Shown: positions 446 through 7,022 of the stretch, one piece after another
Position numbering within the stretch: position 1 is the first letter of the stretch
Layout of the letters: each line of letters opens with the position of its first letter
Source of the DNA: a virus
Virus record (IMG/VR): IMGVR_UViG_3300048121_000571
Span: 1-33,515 of that record
DNA: 33,515 nucleotides
Strand: one strand, 5' to 3'
Translations under genes and position numbers: made by a program
The notes under the pieces: model-generated
The model's database searches: none
Told to the model about the DNA's origin: nothing
What the model saw: only the letters and a program-made list of their open reading frames with translations

Positions 446-924
446 AAAAAAACAAAGACATTCCAAACCTCTTGTAAATCTACTTGCTGAATTAGCTTAG
501 CCCTTTCCTCCAGGTTTAATTTATCGTCTCCATATTCACCCCCTTTAGGTCTGCTCATAGCTGCTAAAAGCAAGTGCATTACTTTAACTGCTTCGCCTTG
601 ATGGTTACTCCTAATATTTATAACATCTAAAAGCTGTCCACTGGTTAGCTTTTCTGGCTTATGTTCTAAATGATATTGAGTACCATTTAAATATACCTTA
701 CTTTTAATTCTTAGCTTTTCTAATAGCTTAACATTAAAGGCATTTAAATCGTCTACTATCTTTTTAAATTCAGACATCTTAATTTTTGAGGCTTCCTCGT
801 ATGTTATGTCTTTTATAGCCGCTACTGCGTAAATATTCTGCTCAACTAAAGACAAACTTTCGTCTATTGAGTTTAATTCTTGGTATTGTCCTACTGTTAT
901 TTTATACGACTGTGTATTGTCCAT
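328..924 (-). CDS. Tail assembly chaperone (gpG-like, zero-frame product)
   Basis: This 198-aa protein would bind the tape measure protein and help assemble the tail tube around it. The start (MDNTQSYKITVGQYQE), the central LTSGQLLDVINIR stretch (about residues 93-105) and the acidic, mixed-helix C-terminus fit tail assembly chaperones seen next to packaging or tail genes in Bacteroidota phages. The strongest evidence is the -1 slippery site near codon 160, with an open second frame beyond it. The gene overlaps the end of terL by 23 bases. Unusually, it is separated from the tape measure gene by four genes (gp10-like, 78 aa, 419 aa, 1004 aa). Identification is by layout plus frameshift, not by a diagnostic catalytic motif. 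Confidence 0.68.
   Translation of the reverse strand: MDNTQSYKITVGQYQELNSIDESLSLVEQNIYAVAAIKDITYEEASKIKMSEFKKIVDDLNAFNVKLLEKLRIKSKVYLNGTQYHLEHKPEKLTSGQLLDVINIRSNHQGEAVKVMHLLLAAMSRPKGGEYGDDKLNLEERAKLIQQVDLQEVWNVFVFFWNLWNDYLNDTEDSLSKWMGETLEMTKQILRKDGDSSA
445..451 (-). promoter_or_regulatory. Programmed -1 ribosomal frameshift slippery site
   Basis: On the minus strand the coding sequence runs GTT TTT TTT TGG, giving a T TTT TTT heptamer in zero frame within a run of nine T (444-452). Both tRNAs can re-pair after slipping back one base, which moves translation into the 80-codon extension ending at 203. The direction of shift (-1) is the one used by siphovirus tail chaperones. Confidence 0.75.
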
Positions 925-2059
925 ATCCTTTCTTACTAAATTTATGCATTATTAAATACCTCAAAGCATCTATTGCGTGATTATAATCGTCAATAGGTAC
1001 GTTAAGGCTATCTCCATTCTTATTTACTTTCCATTTATACTGCTCTAACTCTTTTATTAAGTTACGACTAGACGAATGTACATTAATTGCGTAACCTTTC
1101 AAAAGATTAATTCCAAACATAACAGAATCTTTGCCCTTTTTTACTCCATCTATTGTCCAACCATAACGCCTCAGCTCCTCAATACTTTTTGGCTCGGCTG
1201 AATCTGCCACTATTAAAGCCCCCTTGCTAACTCCAAGTGCTTCCATTCTATCGCTTATATCTTTATTTGTCAAACCAGTTTCGTATATTAACTCTTGTAC
1301 GTACAAATCTCCATCTTGCATACGTACTTCTATTAAGCTGGTAGGGTCATTAGTAAAACCAAAGTCTATTCCGTAGCCTATTAGCTTTTTATCTTCAAAC
1401 CCCTCCTTTAATATATACCATTTTTTGAAAATAAGTCCCTCTATTCGACCAGTCATTCCTCTGGCATATACTTTCCATAGGTCTAAATCTTTGCTTTTAA
1501 GGGCTTCTATCTTCTCTCTTATCTTATCACTTAAAAAAGGGTTATGTCTGTGGTCTGATATTATTAGCTCAGCATTTGTCAAGGGTATTACCTTGTCGTG
1601 TACCCAAAAGCTAGTGTCTGGGTTGTAATCAATATAGACTTGCTTTCTTGTCCTAAGACTTAATTGCTCAAATATATTGTAAGGTATTCCGTTTGCCTCG
1701 TTTACAAACAAATAATCCCTTTTACCAGACTTTGCATCCTGGTCATTATCGTAAGAATTAAACTCCATTATAGAGCCGTTAAGGAAACTAAACACCCTAT
1801 CTGACCTATTGTAGAATGTTACTTGCTGTTTTATAGCCTCATCGCCATTATGTATATCTATCGCATCTCTCAAAGCACCTACCTTTAAATTAGGTATATC
1901 TTGACCCACTACCGTAATTATACAAGTTTCTGAGATAGCCTTAGCGAACAATACTTGCAAAATAGCATAGGTCTTACCAGAAGATGTACCACCTTGATTG
2001 ACTACTATATCTGCATTAGATACAAAATTTTTACGATATAAAGCAGAGGTACTAATCAA
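902..2059 (-). CDS. terL: Terminase large subunit
   Basis: This is the DNA-packaging motor: an N-terminal ATPase that pumps DNA into the prohead and a C-terminal RNase H-fold nuclease that cuts the concatemer. Visible motifs are Walker A GGTSSGKT (residues 23-30), Walker B YLFVNEA (116-122), and nuclease acidic residues in GIDFGFTND (D232), VADSAEP (D286) and NHAIDALRY (D364). At 385 aa it is a little short but carries both domains. The start at 2059 overlaps the terS end (2052) by 8 bases, and the end overlaps the chaperone start, so the genes are translationally coupled. Nothing looks broken. Confidence 0.95.
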   Translation of the reverse strand: MISTSALYRKNFVSNADIVVNQGGTSSGKTYAILQVLFAKAISETCIITVVGQDIPNLKVGALRDAIDIHNGDEAIKQQVTFYNRSDRVFSFLNGSIMEFNSYDNDQDAKSGKRDYLFVNEANGIPYNIFEQLSLRTRKQVYIDYNPDTSFWVHDKVIPLTNAELIISDHRHNPFLSDKIREKIEALKSKDLDLWKVYARGMTGRIEGLIFKKWYILKEGFEDKKLIGYGIDFGFTNDPTSLIEVRMQDGDLYVQELIYETGLTNKDISDRMEALGVSKGALIVADSAEPKSIEELRRYGWTIDGVKKGKDSVMFGINLLKGYAINVHSSSRNLIKELEQYKWKVNKNGDSLNVPIDDYNHAIDALRYLIMHKFSKKGYGQYTVV

Positions 2060-2432
2060 CTATGTCCTTTTCATTAGACGCTAATGGTACGCCAGTATCT
2101 ATAATGTTAATATCTAAACTCTTGTGAGTAGTTTCTTGCTGTACCTCAGTACGTTCTACATATCCTCTTTTCTTGCCTTTAGTCTTTAGGTAAAAAATAG
2201 TACCAGCAGTATTACCTTTTTTTATCTGCTTATGCAGTTGGCTCTCTGCAAAGTCTAAGGCTATATTCTCTATATCATCTACGGCTTCTTTATATATATC
2301 GTCTTGCTTTAGCCAAGTGTAGTGAGTGTTCCTACTTATTCCAACTGACTTACAAGCAGAGGTAACTATCCCTAAAGACTTTTCTAAAGCCTCAAGCATT
2401 GCAGCCTTTTGTATGTCATTTTTTGTACTCAT
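2052..2432 (-). CDS. terS: Terminase small subunit
   Basis: This 126-aa protein should recognise phage DNA and load the large terminase. The N-terminal half has a helix-turn-helix (about residues 19-45: SACKSVGISRNTHYTWLK), the pattern of the phBC6A51-type small terminase family, followed by a helical oligomerisation segment (LDFAESQLHKQIKKGNTAG) and the FYLKTKGKKRGY motif common at the end of these proteins. It lies directly upstream of terL, overlapping it by 8 bases. It begins one base downstream of the stop of the ABC-GNAT gene (2434), so packaging genes appear to be transcribed with the upstream metabolic operon. Confidence 0.9.
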   Translation of the reverse strand: MSTKNDIQKAAMLEALEKSLGIVTSACKSVGISRNTHYTWLKQDDIYKEAVDDIENIALDFAESQLHKQIKKGNTAGTIFYLKTKGKKRGYVERTEVQQETTHKSLDINIIDTGVPLASNEKDIVD

Positions 2433-2433
2433 A

Positions 2434-3504
2434 TTATTTTAATTCAAATGATGCTGTTATTCTATTTTTTGATGTTTTCATATTACCCAAGGATGTACCT
2501 TTTGATTGTGATGAAGTTCTACCATATCTTGTTGTTATCCATTCGGTTGATTTTTTTAAGGCAAATATTAAACTTGGAGCAGAAGTTACTATATTATATC
2601 GTTCTTTTTGTTTTTTATAAATTTTCCCTATTTCATTTAAGAATTTAACACCAAACCCAGCACCTTGATAATCTGGCAAAATAACTAAACGATGCACTTT
2701 TTTCATATTTTTAACTTTTGGATGAGGAAAATGTAAAACACTTAAAAAGCCAGCTATTTCGTCATTAATAGTAGCAATAAAAACTTTTGCAGCGTTATTA
2801 TGAGTATGACTTAAATAATGGTGTTTAGCAAACATTTTCCAAATTGATTTGTTTTTTGTTTCGTATATTTTAAATTTAATTTTTGGTCTATTTTTTTTTT
2901 GCCCTTCAAGTGAATGAAAGGTCATTGTATCTGTGTCAAATATCCAATCTGGTAAAAGCCAATCTTCAACGTCTTTATGACAAGTAACAGCTATAAATTG
3001 TTTTTTGGTTTTTCTAATTGCCTTTTGCATAGCAAAAGAACCAATTTTAGCTACATTTCTATCAACCACACTTGTAAACTCATCAAAAACAAATAACTCA
3101 TTTTTTTCTAATATAGCTCTTGCTAAATCTACTCTCATTTTCTGACCATTTGATAAAACAGAATATGGTTTCAACCAACTTGGAGGGCTTGAAAAACCAA
3201 CAGAATTAAAAGCTGATGTTATTTGTTCAAGACTACATTCTTTTGGCATATCATCCAAAATGGTTTCTTTTTCGTATTTATAAGAAGTTACATAAGCTTT
3301 TTCAAATAATTGTTTTGCTATTGTAGTTTTTCCAGTACCACTTTTACCAACTATTAATCCTATTTGCCAATTATCTGAAATATCAATATTTCCTTTAAAA
3401 TGTTCTATAATATGTTCTGATTTTAAATCAAATTTTCCAACAACAGAAGCTACTCTGAAAGTCTGTTTTGGCTTAACTTCTTTTATAATGTCAAAAGTCG
3501 GCAT
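2434..3504 (-). CDS. ABC-type ATPase fused to GNAT acetyltransferase-like domain
   Basis: This 356-aa protein has two domains. Residues about 30-195 form an ABC ATPase: Walker A GKSGTGKT (53-60), signature LSNGQ (117-121), Walker B LFVFDE (137-142) and H-loop His176. Residues about 210-356 look like a GNAT acyltransferase: HHYLSH (228-233), a beta core, and the acyl-CoA-binding pattern LPDYQGAGFG (276-285). The architecture matches COG2401 (ABC-type ATPase fused to a predicted acetyltransferase domain). There are no membrane segments, so it is not a transporter. Phage Mu Mom, which modifies adenine, has an acyltransferase fold, so a DNA-modifying role is possible but is inference. The start overlaps the ParB-like gene by 22 bases, suggesting coupled expression and joint action. 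Confidence 0.88.
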   Translation of the reverse strand: MPTFDIIKEVKPKQTFRVASVVGKFDLKSEHIIEHFKGNIDISDNWQIGLIVGKSGTGKTTIAKQLFEKAYVTSYKYEKETILDDMPKECSLEQITSAFNSVGFSSPPSWLKPYSVLSNGQKMRVDLARAILEKNELFVFDEFTSVVDRNVAKIGSFAMQKAIRKTKKQFIAVTCHKDVEDWLLPDWIFDTDTMTFHSLEGQKKNRPKIKFKIYETKNKSIWKMFAKHHYLSHTHNNAAKVFIATINDEIAGFLSVLHFPHPKVKNMKKVHRLVILPDYQGAGFGVKFLNEIGKIYKKQKERYNIVTSAPSLIFALKKSTEWITTRYGRTSSQSKGTSLGNMKTSKNRITASFELK

Positions 3505-4001
3505 TCGTATCCTTGTTCTATTAATTTATTATATGTTTTTTCTTGTTGTTCTTCATCATTACAAATTACCTCAATTCTATATAAATTTTCTATTGTTTCT
3601 GATAAATCTTTTAAATCTTCTTCCAGCTCAGTAGCATCCTCAAAAGGAAATGCATTTAAACCCCAATCTGCCAACTCTTCAGAATCCCACTCATTAGCCA
3701 ACATCTCCCAATCGTGCTGCCCGAAGCCTACGTTATCAGCAATAATAAATCTTCTTGCTTCTTCTTCTGTTAAGTCCTCTGCTCTTTTTACCCAATCATC
3801 TGGTAGCTCAGTATATCCTAACTCTTTTAATGCTTTTAAACGCATATTACCTCCTAAGACTATATTATCTTGGTTTATAACCATAGGACGCAAAGCCATC
3901 ATTTTAGGAAACTCCTTAATAGACTTTTTTAACTTTTCAAACTTCTCGTCTTTTATAATACGAGGATTATTTGGATTGCTTTTAATATCTTTTATATTCA
4001 T
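3483..4001 (-). CDS. ParB/Srx-fold nuclease-like protein
   Basis: This 172-aa protein has an N-terminal ParB-like domain: NPNNPRIIKDEKF (residues 9-21), then RPMVINQDNIVLGGNMRLKAL (split around 38-58), where the VLGGNMR motif corresponds to the GxxR box that binds nucleotide in ParB/Srx folds. There is no long central helix-turn-helix as in chromosomal ParB. The rest (about 75-172) is acidic and ends in a small alpha/beta segment (LYRIEVICNDEEQQE). In phages such short ParB-like proteins are often next to DNA-modifying enzymes. Here it overlaps the ABC-GNAT gene by 22 bases and the 61-aa gene by 4, so the three look like one functional set. Nuclease, CTPase or DNA-specificity roles are all possible. 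Confidence 0.85.
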   Translation of the reverse strand: MNIKDIKSNPNNPRIIKDEKFEKLKKSIKEFPKMMALRPMVINQDNIVLGGNMRLKALKELGYTELPDDWVKRAEDLTEEEARRFIIADNVGFGQHDWEMLANEWDSEELADWGLNAFPFEDATELEEDLKDLSETIENLYRIEVICNDEEQQEKTYNKLIEQGYECRLLTL

Positions 4002-4183
4002 TTTAAAAATTTATCATATAATTTAACAACGTGTTTGTATATACACTTGCCACAGCTTACATCTGGTCTGTATCTAAAGTTCTCTTGGCATATCTCTGTA
4101 AACTCATTATAAAATTTAGGGTCTAATCTGCCTCCTTTCATATTATAAATGGCTCGTATTCTTGTTTCTAATTCCTCACTCAT
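3998..4183 (-). CDS. Small conserved-looking protein with CxxC
   Basis: This is a 61-aa protein of unknown function. It has a helical N-terminus (ELETRIRAIYNMKGG) and a C-terminal segment with cysteines at about positions 32, 44 and 47 plus a His (CGKCIYKHVVKLYDKF), which could form a small metal-binding site. It overlaps both neighbours by 4 bases (ATGA type), joining the fusion gene upstream to the ParB-like gene downstream. I do not recognise a family. Confidence 0.7.
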   Translation of the reverse strand: MSEELETRIRAIYNMKGGRLDPKFYNEFTEICQENFRYRPDVSCGKCIYKHVVKLYDKFLK

Positions 4184-5532
4184 AATGATTGTATCCTTTT
4201 TTCGTTCTCTTTGCTTAAATCGTGCTTTATTGTTATATCCTCTTTGAGCTTTAAACCTAAATCGACTTGCATCGTATGATTTCCTTTTATCTTCTTAATT
4301 GCAGCAGCCCAATCATTATTATATACTTTTAAGCTGTTTTTATTTGTTGCAAGTAATGTGTAAGGGTCTATTGCCGATACCATTACTGGCTTGGCAAAGT
4401 GTCCAGCCTCAATCATTTTTAGCTCAGATTTGCAGCTATTAAATACATTATCTTGCAGAGGTATAACACATATACCGCAATCCTCATAATCCTTAGCGTA
4501 TTCTTGTATATCGCTTATCTGTACCTTTGTGCCTTTCATTCGTTTTGGCAGCTTTGGGGTTTTAACAAAAAAGGTTTCATTATCAAAAGCATTACCTAAT
4601 AGTTTTAAATCTCTCAAATGGGTACTACCTCCAGAATAAAAGAACGTATCAAAGTCTAAAGACAAATCCTCATAAGCATATTGTTTTTCTAAAGGGTCTA
4701 AAGCATTCTTAATTATAATGATATTTTTATTATAAGGTCTTATCTTATCTGCTAGTATTGGAGTGGTTGTCCATATTAAGTCAGCAAGTTTTAAGTTCTT
4801 AATAACGCACTTTGTTAGGTTAGTCTTTTTATAGTAGTAACTCATTGGGTGCTTATCGTCTAACTCCCAGTAGTCATCTATATCACAAATAACTTTAATT
4901 CCTTTTGCTCTAAGTTTTAAGTACGTTTCCTCTGGCTGCATTAGCCCAGATATATTTCTATTGTAAACAACGTGAGTAACCCCATCCAGGTTATTGAAAA
5001 ACTCATCGTCCTTATTTAAAAGCACTACTATTTCTATACCATAATCTCGTTTCATCTTTGCAAACGGCATTAAAAGTCTGTGATAACTTACGCCGTTTAT
5101 GTTACGGATAATTACTGCTATTTTTATTTTGTTTTCGTACATTATCTTAAATTCTTTTTTGGCTTTCTTATAGTCTGCTTTTAGCGTTCTATAACCTATT
5201 GAAGCTCCCTTATGTATTTGTGTTAATGTTTCTCCGTTGCTGATTGCTCGGAGTATGTTTGCATAGTAGCTATTCATTCTGTTAAGCACTTGCTCAACGT
5301 CTTGATGTTCTGAGTTATCATTGTCAAAAAAAGGGTCTTTCTTATTGCATTTTTTTAGCCATTGGTTACGCATAACCATAGCAAAATATCCCTTTAAGTT
5401 TTCAAGTGGTGGTTTTTCTAGACAGATTTCATACGCAATAGAAATAAGCTCCTCAGCCTCCACCTTGTCATTGGTAAGCCGAAGAGCATAATCTCTAATG
5501 CTTTGGTCAAAATAGACAGACTCTAGTTTCAA
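4180..5532 (-). CDS. Sigma-70-like N-terminal domain fused to GT-B glycosyltransferase
   Basis: The 450-aa frame has two unlike parts. Residues 1-130 resemble a minimal sigma-like protein: a region-2-like helical part (RDYALRLTNDKVEAEELISIAY, split; then GYFAMVMRNQWLK at 48-60) and a helix-turn-helix-like end (GETLTQIHKGASIGYRTLK, 100-118). Residues 131-450 resemble GT-B, family-4-like glycosyltransferases: IAVIIRNINGVSYHRLLMP, then the CDIDDYWEL motif (216-224), ADLIWTTTPILADKI and IKNALDP. Met131 (base 5142) begins the transferase domain and could be an internal start, so the gene may make both a fusion and a free transferase. It overlaps the SSB-like gene by 4 bases. The sugar acceptor (DNA or protein) cannot be read from the sequence. 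Confidence 0.75.
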   Translation of the reverse strand: MKLESVYFDQSIRDYALRLTNDKVEAEELISIAYEICLEKPPLENLKGYFAMVMRNQWLKKCNKKDPFFDNDNSEHQDVEQVLNRMNSYYANILRAISNGETLTQIHKGASIGYRTLKADYKKAKKEFKIMYENKIKIAVIIRNINGVSYHRLLMPFAKMKRDYGIEIVVLLNKDDEFFNNLDGVTHVVYNRNISGLMQPEETYLKLRAKGIKVICDIDDYWELDDKHPMSYYYKKTNLTKCVIKNLKLADLIWTTTPILADKIRPYNKNIIIIKNALDPLEKQYAYEDLSLDFDTFFYSGGSTHLRDLKLLGNAFDNETFFVKTPKLPKRMKGTKVQISDIQEYAKDYEDCGICVIPLQDNVFNSCKSELKMIEAGHFAKPVMVSAIDPYTLLATNKNSLKVYNNDWAAAIKKIKGNHTMQVDLGLKLKEDITIKHDLSKENEKRIQSL

Positions 5533-5789
5533 AAGGGTAGTCCGTCTGTGCTTTCTGCCATTACTGGCTCAGTTTTAGTTTCTGGCTTCCAAGTGTCTAG
5601 TTCAACATAAGGTTTACCACTTTTGCCGATGTTAATTTTTAGGTTAACCCAGCCTTTGTCTGTGTGTTTCTGAATAAAGGTAATAGCATCCTCTGCTTTT
5701 AAGCTAAGGCTACCTACTACCCAATCTGGTGAATTAGGATTCATTTTAAACATAAATCCATCTGCAAATACTTTTTCTGTTTTGTTCAT
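5529..5789 (-). CDS. SSB-like small DNA-metabolism protein
   Basis: This 86-aa protein has a compact beta-rich body (DWVVGSLSLKAEDAITFI; then WVNLKINIGKSGKPYVELD) and a disordered tail ending DGLPF. The tail resembles the acidic, Pro-Phe C-terminal tip that single-stranded-DNA-binding proteins use to recruit partners. The body is shorter than a full OB-fold SSB, so it could be a small SSB or a partner protein. It starts one base downstream of the Nmad1 gene and overlaps the fusion gene by 4 bases. Confidence 0.55.
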   Translation of the reverse strand: MNKTEKVFADGFMFKMNPNSPDWVVGSLSLKAEDAITFIQKHTDKGWVNLKINIGKSGKPYVELDTWKPETKTEPVMAESTDGLPF

Positions 5790-5790
5790 T

Positions 5791-6093
5791 TTACTTATTT
5801 TCGTTTATTATCATTGACAAAAGTACAGCATAATTAGCTAAATCTAAAACGCTGTCCTCTATACTTTCATTGTTAGGCTCTTTATCTGTATTGATTAACA
5901 CCCCTAATCTTGCCACTTTAGTAGCTATAAGGTTTAAGCAGTTAGTCCTGGCATCTCCTCCAGCAATAGCTCCAGCTAATTTAAAGTTAGATAATCTATC
6001 TTCATTTGCATAGTCATCTCCCTTGCTAAATAATGTCTTTTCCATCTGCTCGGTTATGTAACCGAAGTGAGCCATTTGTTCTTTTTTAGTCAT
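5791..6093 (-). CDS. DUF1599 / Nucleotide modification associated domain 1 protein
   Basis: This 100-aa helical protein shows the DUF1599 pattern: KGDDYANEDRLSNFKLAG (residues 24-41), then a KVARLGVL helix (59-66) and NNESIEDSVLDLANYAVLL (74-92). The acidic EDSxxD helix and the GDDY motif resemble MazG/dUTPase-like all-alpha nucleotide pyrophosphohydrolases. DUF1599 is also called Nmad1 because it co-occurs with enzymes for hypermodified bases. It probably acts on a nucleotide. It overlaps the upstream 61-aa gene by 8 bases and is followed by the SSB-like gene. Confidence 0.78.
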   Translation of the reverse strand: MTKKEQMAHFGYITEQMEKTLFSKGDDYANEDRLSNFKLAGAIAGGDARTNCLNLIATKVARLGVLINTDKEPNNESIEDSVLDLANYAVLLSMIINENK

Positions 6094-6271
6094 TTATTTC
6101 CTTATTTAATTTTACTTCTTGTAATTTCCATTCGTGCCGTCTTGCGTGTGGGATTTTGTGTCTTGTCATTAACCGATTAAATAGCGTATCTTTCTCAGCT
6201 ATATTGCCATAGACCTCTGAGCTAATTACTTTCTTAGCTCTCATTGCTGTAACTTGATATAATCCTTTCAT
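6086..6271 (-). CDS. Hypothetical 61-aa basic protein
   Basis: This small, Lys/Arg-rich protein starts MKGLYQVTAMRAKKVISS and has a central helical stretch with HKIPHARRHEWKLQEVKL. The start is one base beyond the stop of the PP-loop enzyme gene (6273), and the end overlaps the Nmad1 gene. The charge and packing suggest a DNA- or nucleoprotein-related accessory, but no family is recognised. Confidence 0.65.
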   Translation of the reverse strand: MKGLYQVTAMRAKKVISSEVYGNIAEKDTLFNRLMTRHKIPHARRHEWKLQEVKLNKEIND

Positions 6272-6272
6272 A

Positions 6273-7022
6273 TTAATCTATATTACAAAAACACTCAAAC
6301 GATGGGTCGCCATCAAATAAACCTTTTTGCAACTCGCTTTTTTCTTTTATTTGTTTGTAAGTTATTTCTTTTTTAAATTGATTTTTATTTTCTTTATCTA
6401 TCCACCATTGAAATAAGTCTGGGCGTTCTTTTGCAATTATAGATAATTTACCTTTACCTTTTAAAAAACACCCATCACAATTTCCATAAGGGTCATTTAC
6501 ATTTAGATTAAAATCTTGATTACTCCACCATTTTAATACATCATCCTTTGTTGTTTTCCATTTAACAAGAGGGTGTTCTATTTCCATATATTGTGGCAAC
6601 TTAGATGTTTTCCCCCATCTTCTCGGCTCATCATACCTTATACCGACATAATGACTCCATTCTTTAACATCTATACTTTTTGCCCACCTTTTAAGTGTAT
6701 TAATTTTCATCTCCTTTGTGCAAAACCTCATCATTGTATTTGGTAATACACCTTTATTCCAAGCAATCAACTCATCAAATGGTCTACCATTGCGTGACGC
6801 AGTTTTATAATCTACCACCTCAAAATTATTCCCATATCTATACTCAAGCCAAACTATATTTAAATTCCAACGCTTATCGCATTCATTTATAAAGTCTAAA
6901 GTTTCTGGCATTTCTTTGCCAGTATTTTGAAAAGTTACAATATAATCAGACAAACCCTCATTAATCAAACGCTTTGTCATATATGCAGAAGTTCTACCAC
7001 CACTAAAATTTATTATATTCAT
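6273..7022 (-). CDS. PAPS reductase-like PP-loop enzyme
   Basis: This 249-aa protein belongs to the adenine nucleotide alpha hydrolase superfamily: the N-terminal NFSGGRTSAYM carries the PP-loop SGGRTS (residues 7-12) that binds the ATP or PAPS phosphate. Further features are RFCTKEMKINTL (Cys101), a Cys pair in GNCDGCFLKGKGK (182, 185) and a C-terminal Cys pair (244, 246), which could hold a metal or Fe-S cluster. Phages often carry such enzymes; known relatives act in sulfate reduction, tRNA thiolation, or DNA phosphorothioation (DndC). No dnd-type partners are visible, so the substrate is open. It overlaps the HNH gene by 4 bases. Confidence 0.85.
   Translation of the reverse strand: MNIINFSGGRTSAYMTKRLINEGLSDYIVTFQNTGKEMPETLDFINECDKRWNLNIVWLEYRYGNNFEVVDYKTASRNGRPFDELIAWNKGVLPNTMMRFCTKEMKINTLKRWAKSIDVKEWSHYVGIRYDEPRRWGKTSKLPQYMEIEHPLVKWKTTKDDVLKWWSNQDFNLNVNDPYGNCDGCFLKGKGKLSIIAKERPDLFQWWIDKENKNQFKKEITYKQIKEKSELQKGLFDGDPSFECFCNID

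Follow-up and report, generated by a model that had tools for sequence, protein, structure and literature searches.

A ParB and ABC ATPase-GNAT gene pair as a probable DNA-modification cassette in an exchange slot upstream of phage terminase genes

Introduction

Which of the eight genes packed together at positions 2434-7022 of the viral record IMGVR_UViG_3300048121_000571 (IMG/VR) function as a unit, and on what do their products act? The record, 33,515 bp long and taken whole as the window of this analysis, carries there eight minus-strand open reading frames (ORFs) that overlap by 22, 4, 4, 4 or 8 nucleotides (nt) or are separated by 1-nt gaps, coordinates that confirm a preliminary description of the locus as eight tightly packed and mostly overlapping genes. 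That description had named a ParB-like protein, an ABC ATPase-GNAT fusion, a glycosyltransferase (GT), an Nmad1 protein and a PP-loop enzyme, and had joined these five into a single DNA-modification island. The identities were borne out by Pfam and PHROG, with ParB_N and Nmad1 below the Pfam cutoff, but the list of domains had overlooked a sigma-70-like domain on the GT and an SspD match of the PP-loop enzyme. The description had seen no DNA methyltransferase, and none was found by Pfam or PHROG among the window proteins scanned, some window ORFs lying outside the scan. The comparisons presented here point to a smaller unit, in which ParB and the ABC ATPase-GNAT fusion probably constitute a two-gene DNA-modification cassette, housed in a slot that immediately precedes the terminase genes.

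Linkage of ParB and ABC-GNAT

The ABC ATPase-GNAT fusion protein (ABC-GNAT, 356 amino acids (aa), positions 2434..3504, minus strand) is preceded by a ParB-domain protein of 172 aa (3483..4001, minus strand), consisting of a constant N-domain (residues ~1-118) coupled to a C-terminal tail specific to ABC-GNAT loci. ParB_N was matched at 1.6e-5, just under the Pfam cutoff, and PHROG ParB families at values down to 3e-23. Viral contigs were searched with ABC-GNAT as the query, giving a near set of 80 relatives and a more distant set, within which callable loci were counted. ParB was located directly upstream of ABC-GNAT in all 80 near viral relatives, and in the more distant set was adjacent in 68 of 71 viral loci, 9 of 17 GenBank phages and 40 of 62 cellular loci. 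Cellular ABC ATPase-acetyltransferases make up the family COG2401. The two reading frames overlap by 22 nt (3483..3504, minus strand), a length shared by 178 adjacent pairs, and no other length of overlap was seen more than three times.

The other enzymes of the block behaved differently. The preliminary description had proposed linked occurrence in related phages as a check on the island, and linkage held for ParB with ABC-GNAT but the PP-loop, Nmad1 and GT genes proved scattered, being present in 3, 3 and 6 of the 80 near ABC-GNAT loci respectively. Reverse searches recovered ABC-GNAT at only 1 of 80 PP-loop, 4 of 80 Nmad1 and 1 of 50 GT loci. The ParB adjacency, the shared overlap and the rarity of these co-occurrences identify ParB and ABC-GNAT, not all eight genes, as the predicted functional module. 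Under an alternative arrangement the eight genes would form one hypermodification pathway, with the PP-loop, Nmad1, GT, ParB and ABC-GNAT products acting in sequence. This would fit the tight same-strand packing and the fact that all of these families have come up in connection with DNA modification or nucleotide chemistry, but is largely refuted, and very improbable, given the scattered occurrence in both search directions, the retention of GT and Nmad1 whatever the neighbouring cassette, and the lack of the PP-loop gene in most close relatives. The five-enzyme island of the preliminary description falls with it.

Variants of the ABC-GNAT arrangement were observed in other phages. A second ABC-GNAT subtype, 32-33% identical, occurs within the same clade with no ParB and sits between a replication gene and HNH (L259:1902-3044 and L371:1330-2478). 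Instead of a fusion, phages of Oenococcus, Streptococcus and Lactococcus have ABC and GNAT as two separate neighbouring ORFs (L082:4001-5061, L084:4001-5070 and L086:4001-5055). Isolated phages of laboratory hosts in which the gene occurs include Lactococcus phage P335, with ABC and GNAT in separate ORFs, Gordonia phages Jace and BiggityBass, Arthrobacter phage EastWest and Pseudoalteromonas phage SL25. Gordonia phage Jace encodes an aspartate decarboxylase (L099:5074-5499; PF02261, 2e-33) directly after ParB and ABC-GNAT, which could supply beta-alanine as a group for attachment.

The slot upstream of the terminase genes

The slot is bordered on the left by s61b, a 61-aa backbone protein (3998..4183, minus strand) kept with every cassette, and on the right by the terminase small subunit (TerS; 2052..2432, minus strand), assigned by PHROG and conserved position. 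Beyond TerS lies the terminase large subunit (902..2059, minus strand), for which the closest isolated-phage records are Flavobacterium phages. The window terminase has 38% identity to terminases of Flavobacterium phages, and the host is therefore likely a member of the Bacteroidota.

Phages recovered by the reverse searches, and near-identical to the window in both flanks of ParB and ABC-GNAT, were used to sample the contents of this slot. Counting from s61b to TerS gave 52 non-identical slots, the window apart. ParB stood alone in 24 slots and ABC-GNAT was present in two. All of the 26 remaining filled slots contained DNA-modification families, comprising ParB with an N6/N4 methyltransferase, either fused to it or as its own gene (10), TET-associated glycosyltransferase (TAGT; 4), Mom (4), an FkbM methyltransferase with TET/JBP oxygenase (4), TAGT with TET/JBP (3) and TET/JBP alone (1). 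Pfam assignments of representatives were PF25680 Mom (4.7e-43), PF20691 TAGT (3e-35), PF12851 Tet_JBP (3.2e-9) and PF01555 N6_N4_Mtase (1.5e-17). The Mom-like protein of the slot is 31% identical to Mom of phage Mu (4e-16), the enzyme (PF25680) that makes N6-methylcarbamoyl adenine.

DNA identity in the two flanks remained high whichever enzyme was present, at 96/90% for a ParB-only slot (L251), 94/93% for TAGT with TET/JBP (L333), 96/94% for Mom (L410), 92/89% for FkbM with TET/JBP (L331), and 95/91% and 94/90% for two methyltransferase slots (L334 and L408). In blastn comparisons with close relatives, homology to the window stopped at nt +341 to +381 of ParB and resumed at the start of TerS, and in the closest examples no DNA homology to the window was detectable between these breakpoints. 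The swapped piece is therefore the C-terminal tail of ParB together with the enzyme, while the constant ParB N-domain is retained. In the window, the stop and resume points against near-identical phages delimit an exchanged cassette of ParB tail plus ABC-GNAT at 2434..3660 (minus strand). Phage ParB-DNA methyltransferase fusions (PHROG 498) share both the N-terminal ParB domain and the slot, but in the window the methyltransferase part gives way to a tail of specific type and to ABC-GNAT as a gene of its own.

Several slots held further features. In ParB-only slots (L251, L264, L348, L384-L386, L387-L389 and others), the tail usually ends in a conserved CxKCG. This ending could serve to dock a host factor, or it could mark a slot that has been emptied. 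A ParB-led slot at L346:11165-12839, found also in L345, encodes an S-adenosylmethionine (SAM) decarboxylase (PF02675, 1.4e-23) together with a weakly N6_N4_Mtase-like DPPW protein and a GNAT. This set suggests that an aminopropyl group from decarboxylated SAM is put onto DNA and then possibly acylated. At L298:1150-4113, the genes behind ParB form a predicted base hypermodification set, in which a glutamine amidotransferase domain and a GNAT are joined by an amino acid:DNA transferase (ADDT; PF18724, 9.5e-12) and a P-loop protein.

A second exchange in Mu-like phages

An independent exchange was observed in Porphyromonas phage008a, a Mu-like phage with a transposase, a MuB-like protein and Gam. 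At the right end of its genome, far from the terminase, phage008a carries ABC-GNAT followed by a Formyl_trans_N gene, and at the same right genome end a relative, phage012a, carries a Mom-like gene in the place of ABC-GNAT. The two phages are 87.9% identical across the 3108 bp leading up to the border, and homology is regained in the last 93 bp. In Mu itself, mom occupies the matching genome end (35985-36554 of 36717). Genome comparison shows that ABC-GNAT and known DNA-modifying enzymes have changed places in two types of phage unrelated to each other, and because of this substitution, a DNA-modification role for ParB and ABC-GNAT is very likely. The role proposed in the preliminary description can in this way be kept for these two genes on grounds beyond gene order, but not for the whole set.

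A Formyl_trans_N gene was found directly 3' of ABC-GNAT in Porphyromonas, Pseudomonas and Gordonia phages, at L088:5122-5595, L097:4984-5601 and L092:1823-2473. The ABC-GNATs linked to a formyltransferase in these phages form one subtype. Speculatively, the formyltransferase may further decorate an amine already installed.

Effector-specific ParB tails

A profile hidden Markov model (HMM) was made from the last 34 residues of ParBs paired with ABC-GNAT. It matched 203 of 212 ParB ORFs of ABC-GNAT loci and 7 of 104 of other loci, a comparison in which the negatives are the informative part given that the profile was built from the positives. Six of the seven off-target loci were genome loci fetched for an ABC-GNAT that the gene caller had missed, which leaves approximately 1 in 98. 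A Mom-type tail, distinct from the ABC-GNAT type, is common to the Mom slot of L410 and to L434. A Psychrobacter phage with a very different ParB N-domain carries the Mom-type tail too, in the same ParB-Mom-TerS-TerL order. Across these loci the ParB tail tracks the enzyme, not the phage lineage.

Domains and fold of ABC-GNAT

Within the single ABC-GNAT protein, Pfam identified ABC_tran (2.9e-10) and GNAT (1.3e-6), and PHROG 11143 was matched across the full length (5.7e-98). The ABC ATPase extends over residues ~1-205 and the GNAT acyltransferase over ~207-356. An AlphaFold2 model showed two domains with confidence (predicted local distance difference test (pLDDT) 89, predicted template modelling score (pTM) 0.82). 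By VIA-align, residues 1-209 matched ABC ATPases and residues 210-356 matched RimI (Z 14.7, root mean square deviation (rmsd) 2.3, 128 residues). The Foldseek and VIA matches were mostly ABC domains of transporters and are therefore uninformative on substrate. Among 51 sequences, the ABC motifs G53xSGxGK59, LSxG (117-120), DE (141-142), D148 and H176 were invariant; these are the Walker A, signature, Walker B, D-loop and H-loop motifs, all complete in the window protein. The acyl-CoA-binding Q/RxxGxG/A motif is near-invariant in the 51 relatives, with Q280, G281 and G283 each conserved in at least 90%, and is accompanied by conserved H229, Y230, R272 and W322. The ratio of non-synonymous to synonymous substitution (dN/dS) was 0.11-0.22, indicating purifying selection.

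Against the closest relative (L002), the GNAT half of the window gene (2434-2890) had a dN of 0.124 compared to 0.006 in the ABC half, and a dS of 0.44 compared to 0.12. From this divergence, recombination inside the ABC-GNAT gene is possible. A PADLOC match to mad3 (5e-12) reached no further than residues 103-188, within the ABC domain, and was regarded as a generic one.

The relation of the GNAT domain to Mom was also considered. Mom was absent from the Pfam matches listed for the window ABC-GNAT, six further, unlisted matches having E-values of at least 0.086, whereas Mom genes from related phages reach E-values of 1e-34 to 1e-55 against PF25680. Alignment of GNAT and Mom by hhalign was weak (probability 12.8%) and covered 33 columns around HHY. 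On the Pfam gathering cutoff, membership of the Mom family by sequence was rejected. The two enzymes nevertheless both belong to the GNAT superfamily, trade places at two unrelated loci and share the short HHY motif, but differ in that Mom has no ABC ATPase.

TmcA/NAT10 likewise combines an ATPase and a GNAT in one polypeptide. In TmcA the ATPase is of a helicase-like and not an ABC kind, and the substrate is tRNA. A weak match to TmcA (2zpa) spanned both domains of ABC-GNAT (E 1e-7), although the superposition was poor (rmsd 13.3), and the resemblance is therefore one of analogy and not of membership. ABC-GNAT could instead act on a host protein, or on RNA such as tRNA, as a host-takeover or anti-defence factor, in which case the slot would be a general cargo site. 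Some weight is lent to this by TmcA, an ATPase-GNAT enzyme of solved structure with a tRNA substrate, and by RimI, which ranks among the leading fold matches for the GNAT domain. GNATs do commonly acetylate proteins and RNA. A general cargo site is at odds with slots that, where filled by something other than ABC-GNAT, hold DNA-modification families in every case, and a protein or RNA target with the like replacement of Mom in the unrelated Mu-like group and with a DNA-linked partner, ParB, that was also met elsewhere with DNA methyltransferases, Mom and ADDT. We consider this explanation unlikely.

Still less likely is a role for ParB and ABC-GNAT in DNA transactions that involve no base modification, such as an ATP-dependent clamp for packaging or segregation with GNAT as a regulatory part. 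The locus does lie directly upstream of the terminase, an ABC fold is suited to clamping DNA, and ParB proteins function in partition. However, the pair is replaced at one locus by catalytic DNA-modifying enzymes, the phage008a gene is remote from the terminase, and the acyl-CoA motif is conserved.

Other genes of the block

Upstream of s61b, a sigma-like domain is fused to a GT-B-type glycosyltransferase (4180..5532, minus strand), which lies outside the cassette and was assigned to the backbone from PHROG, structures and close relatives. The gene matched PHROG 7162 (6.6e-42) and no Pfam glycosyltransferase, TAGT included, and its N-terminus gave a weak Pfam match to a sigma-70-like domain along with sigma-factor structure matches. 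The fusion, an unusual one, is retained across 87 related loci. The AlphaFold2 model was of low confidence (66.8), was used only for the broad GT-B and sigma assignment, and resembles GT-B enzymes of the metabolite or cell-surface type. Next in the block are an ORF at 5529-5789 (minus strand), the DUF1599/Nmad1-like gene (5791..6093, minus strand; Pfam 6.6e-4, below the cutoff, and PHROG 1485 1.6e-14) and a further ORF at 6086-6271 (minus strand). No meaningful match to a solved structure was obtained by sequence for Nmad1 or the GT. Both genes are retained in close relatives in which the slot holds Mom, a methyltransferase or TET/JBP or is empty, a distribution that marks them as backbone genes of this phage clade. 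The preliminary description had offered a Mom-like acyl modification or a sugar modification, and of the two options acyl is the better, sugar modification by the window GT being unsupported because the GT is a backbone gene with a low-confidence fold of the metabolite or cell-surface GT-B type.

The last gene encodes a PAPS-reductase/SspD-like PP-loop enzyme (6273..7022, minus strand), with matches to PAPS_reduct (3.2e-6), PHROG 424 (4.9e-46) and PADLOC SspD (9.4e-23). Most close relatives lack it and show in its place a gap as long as the gene, the pattern of a gene separately gained or lost, independent of the cassette. Cysteines C101, C182, C185, C244 and C246 are invariant, and homologues occur in more than 100 viral contigs. 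The SspD match recalls the Ssp/Dnd phosphorothioate systems, but no further ssp or dnd genes, SspA, SspB and SspC included, were found by PADLOC among the window proteins scanned, so that the gene stands alone there and is unlinked to ABC-GNAT.

Discussion

For the substrate, the donor, the target atom, the role of ParB as an adaptor and an anti-restriction purpose, we infer the following scheme. The constant ParB domain would engage phage DNA and the C-terminal tail would dock the matching enzyme. The ABC ATPase would dimerize on DNA and grip it through an ATP-dependent cycle, and GNAT would draw on an acyl-CoA-type donor to acylate a base at its exocyclic amino group (N6 of adenine or N4 of cytosine). 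The added group is probably acyl, placed on a base amino group, and modified phage DNA would be protected from host nucleases before packaging. It is conceivable, though we would not call it probable, that phages use the ParB N-domain as a general adaptor for DNA targeting, with interchangeable base-modifying enzymes attached via enzyme-specific C-terminal tails, ABC-GNAT being an ATP-driven member that makes an undescribed base modification.

Several observations weigh against the proposed DNA-modification cassette. All support is comparative and no modified base was detected. Approximately half of the sampled slots contain ParB without an effector, and ParB may therefore have another role. 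A few slots also hold small unrelated ORFs, and the slot examples are mainly metagenome contigs. The T4-like, Mu-like and P12024S subtypes of ABC-GNAT have no detectable ParB, which is therefore not obligatory, and by sequence the GNAT domain lies outside the Mom family.

That a GNAT coupled to an ABC ATPase gives a DNA base an acyl modification of uncharacterised kind was predicted by Iyer and colleagues and restated in PMC7824862 (section 3.4.7), where QAX98348.1 is given as an example and Tenacibaculum phage pT24 is also named; the ABC-GNAT prediction itself is already published. The window protein belongs to the same family by homology (35.5% identity to QAX98348.1 of Aeromonas phage AsFcp_2, 81% coverage, E 1e-45), by its ABC motifs and by its GNAT fold and acyl-CoA motif, and pT24 was among the ABC-GNAT sequence matches. 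The window member differs in having a ParB partner with a matching tail and an exchange slot, and ParB has 0 occurrences in PMC7824862. Literature searches on ABC-GNAT with ParB or COG2401 found only this article, and within their coverage, which did not extend to the 2013 Iyer paper, the ParB-led exchange slot, the effector-matched tails and the replacement of Mom appear to be new.

The prediction for ABC-GNAT moves in this way from a basis in gene order to one in functional substitution. Closely related natural phages differ in the enzyme that follows ParB, and mass spectrometry of their virion DNA would make an uncharacterised chemistry readable. Any unknown gene found in the slot becomes a candidate DNA-modifying enzyme, as with the SAM decarboxylase set and the amino acid:DNA transferase set. 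If ParB is indeed a shared adaptor with exchangeable tails, this would explain how phages can quickly swap their DNA chemistry in the face of host restriction.

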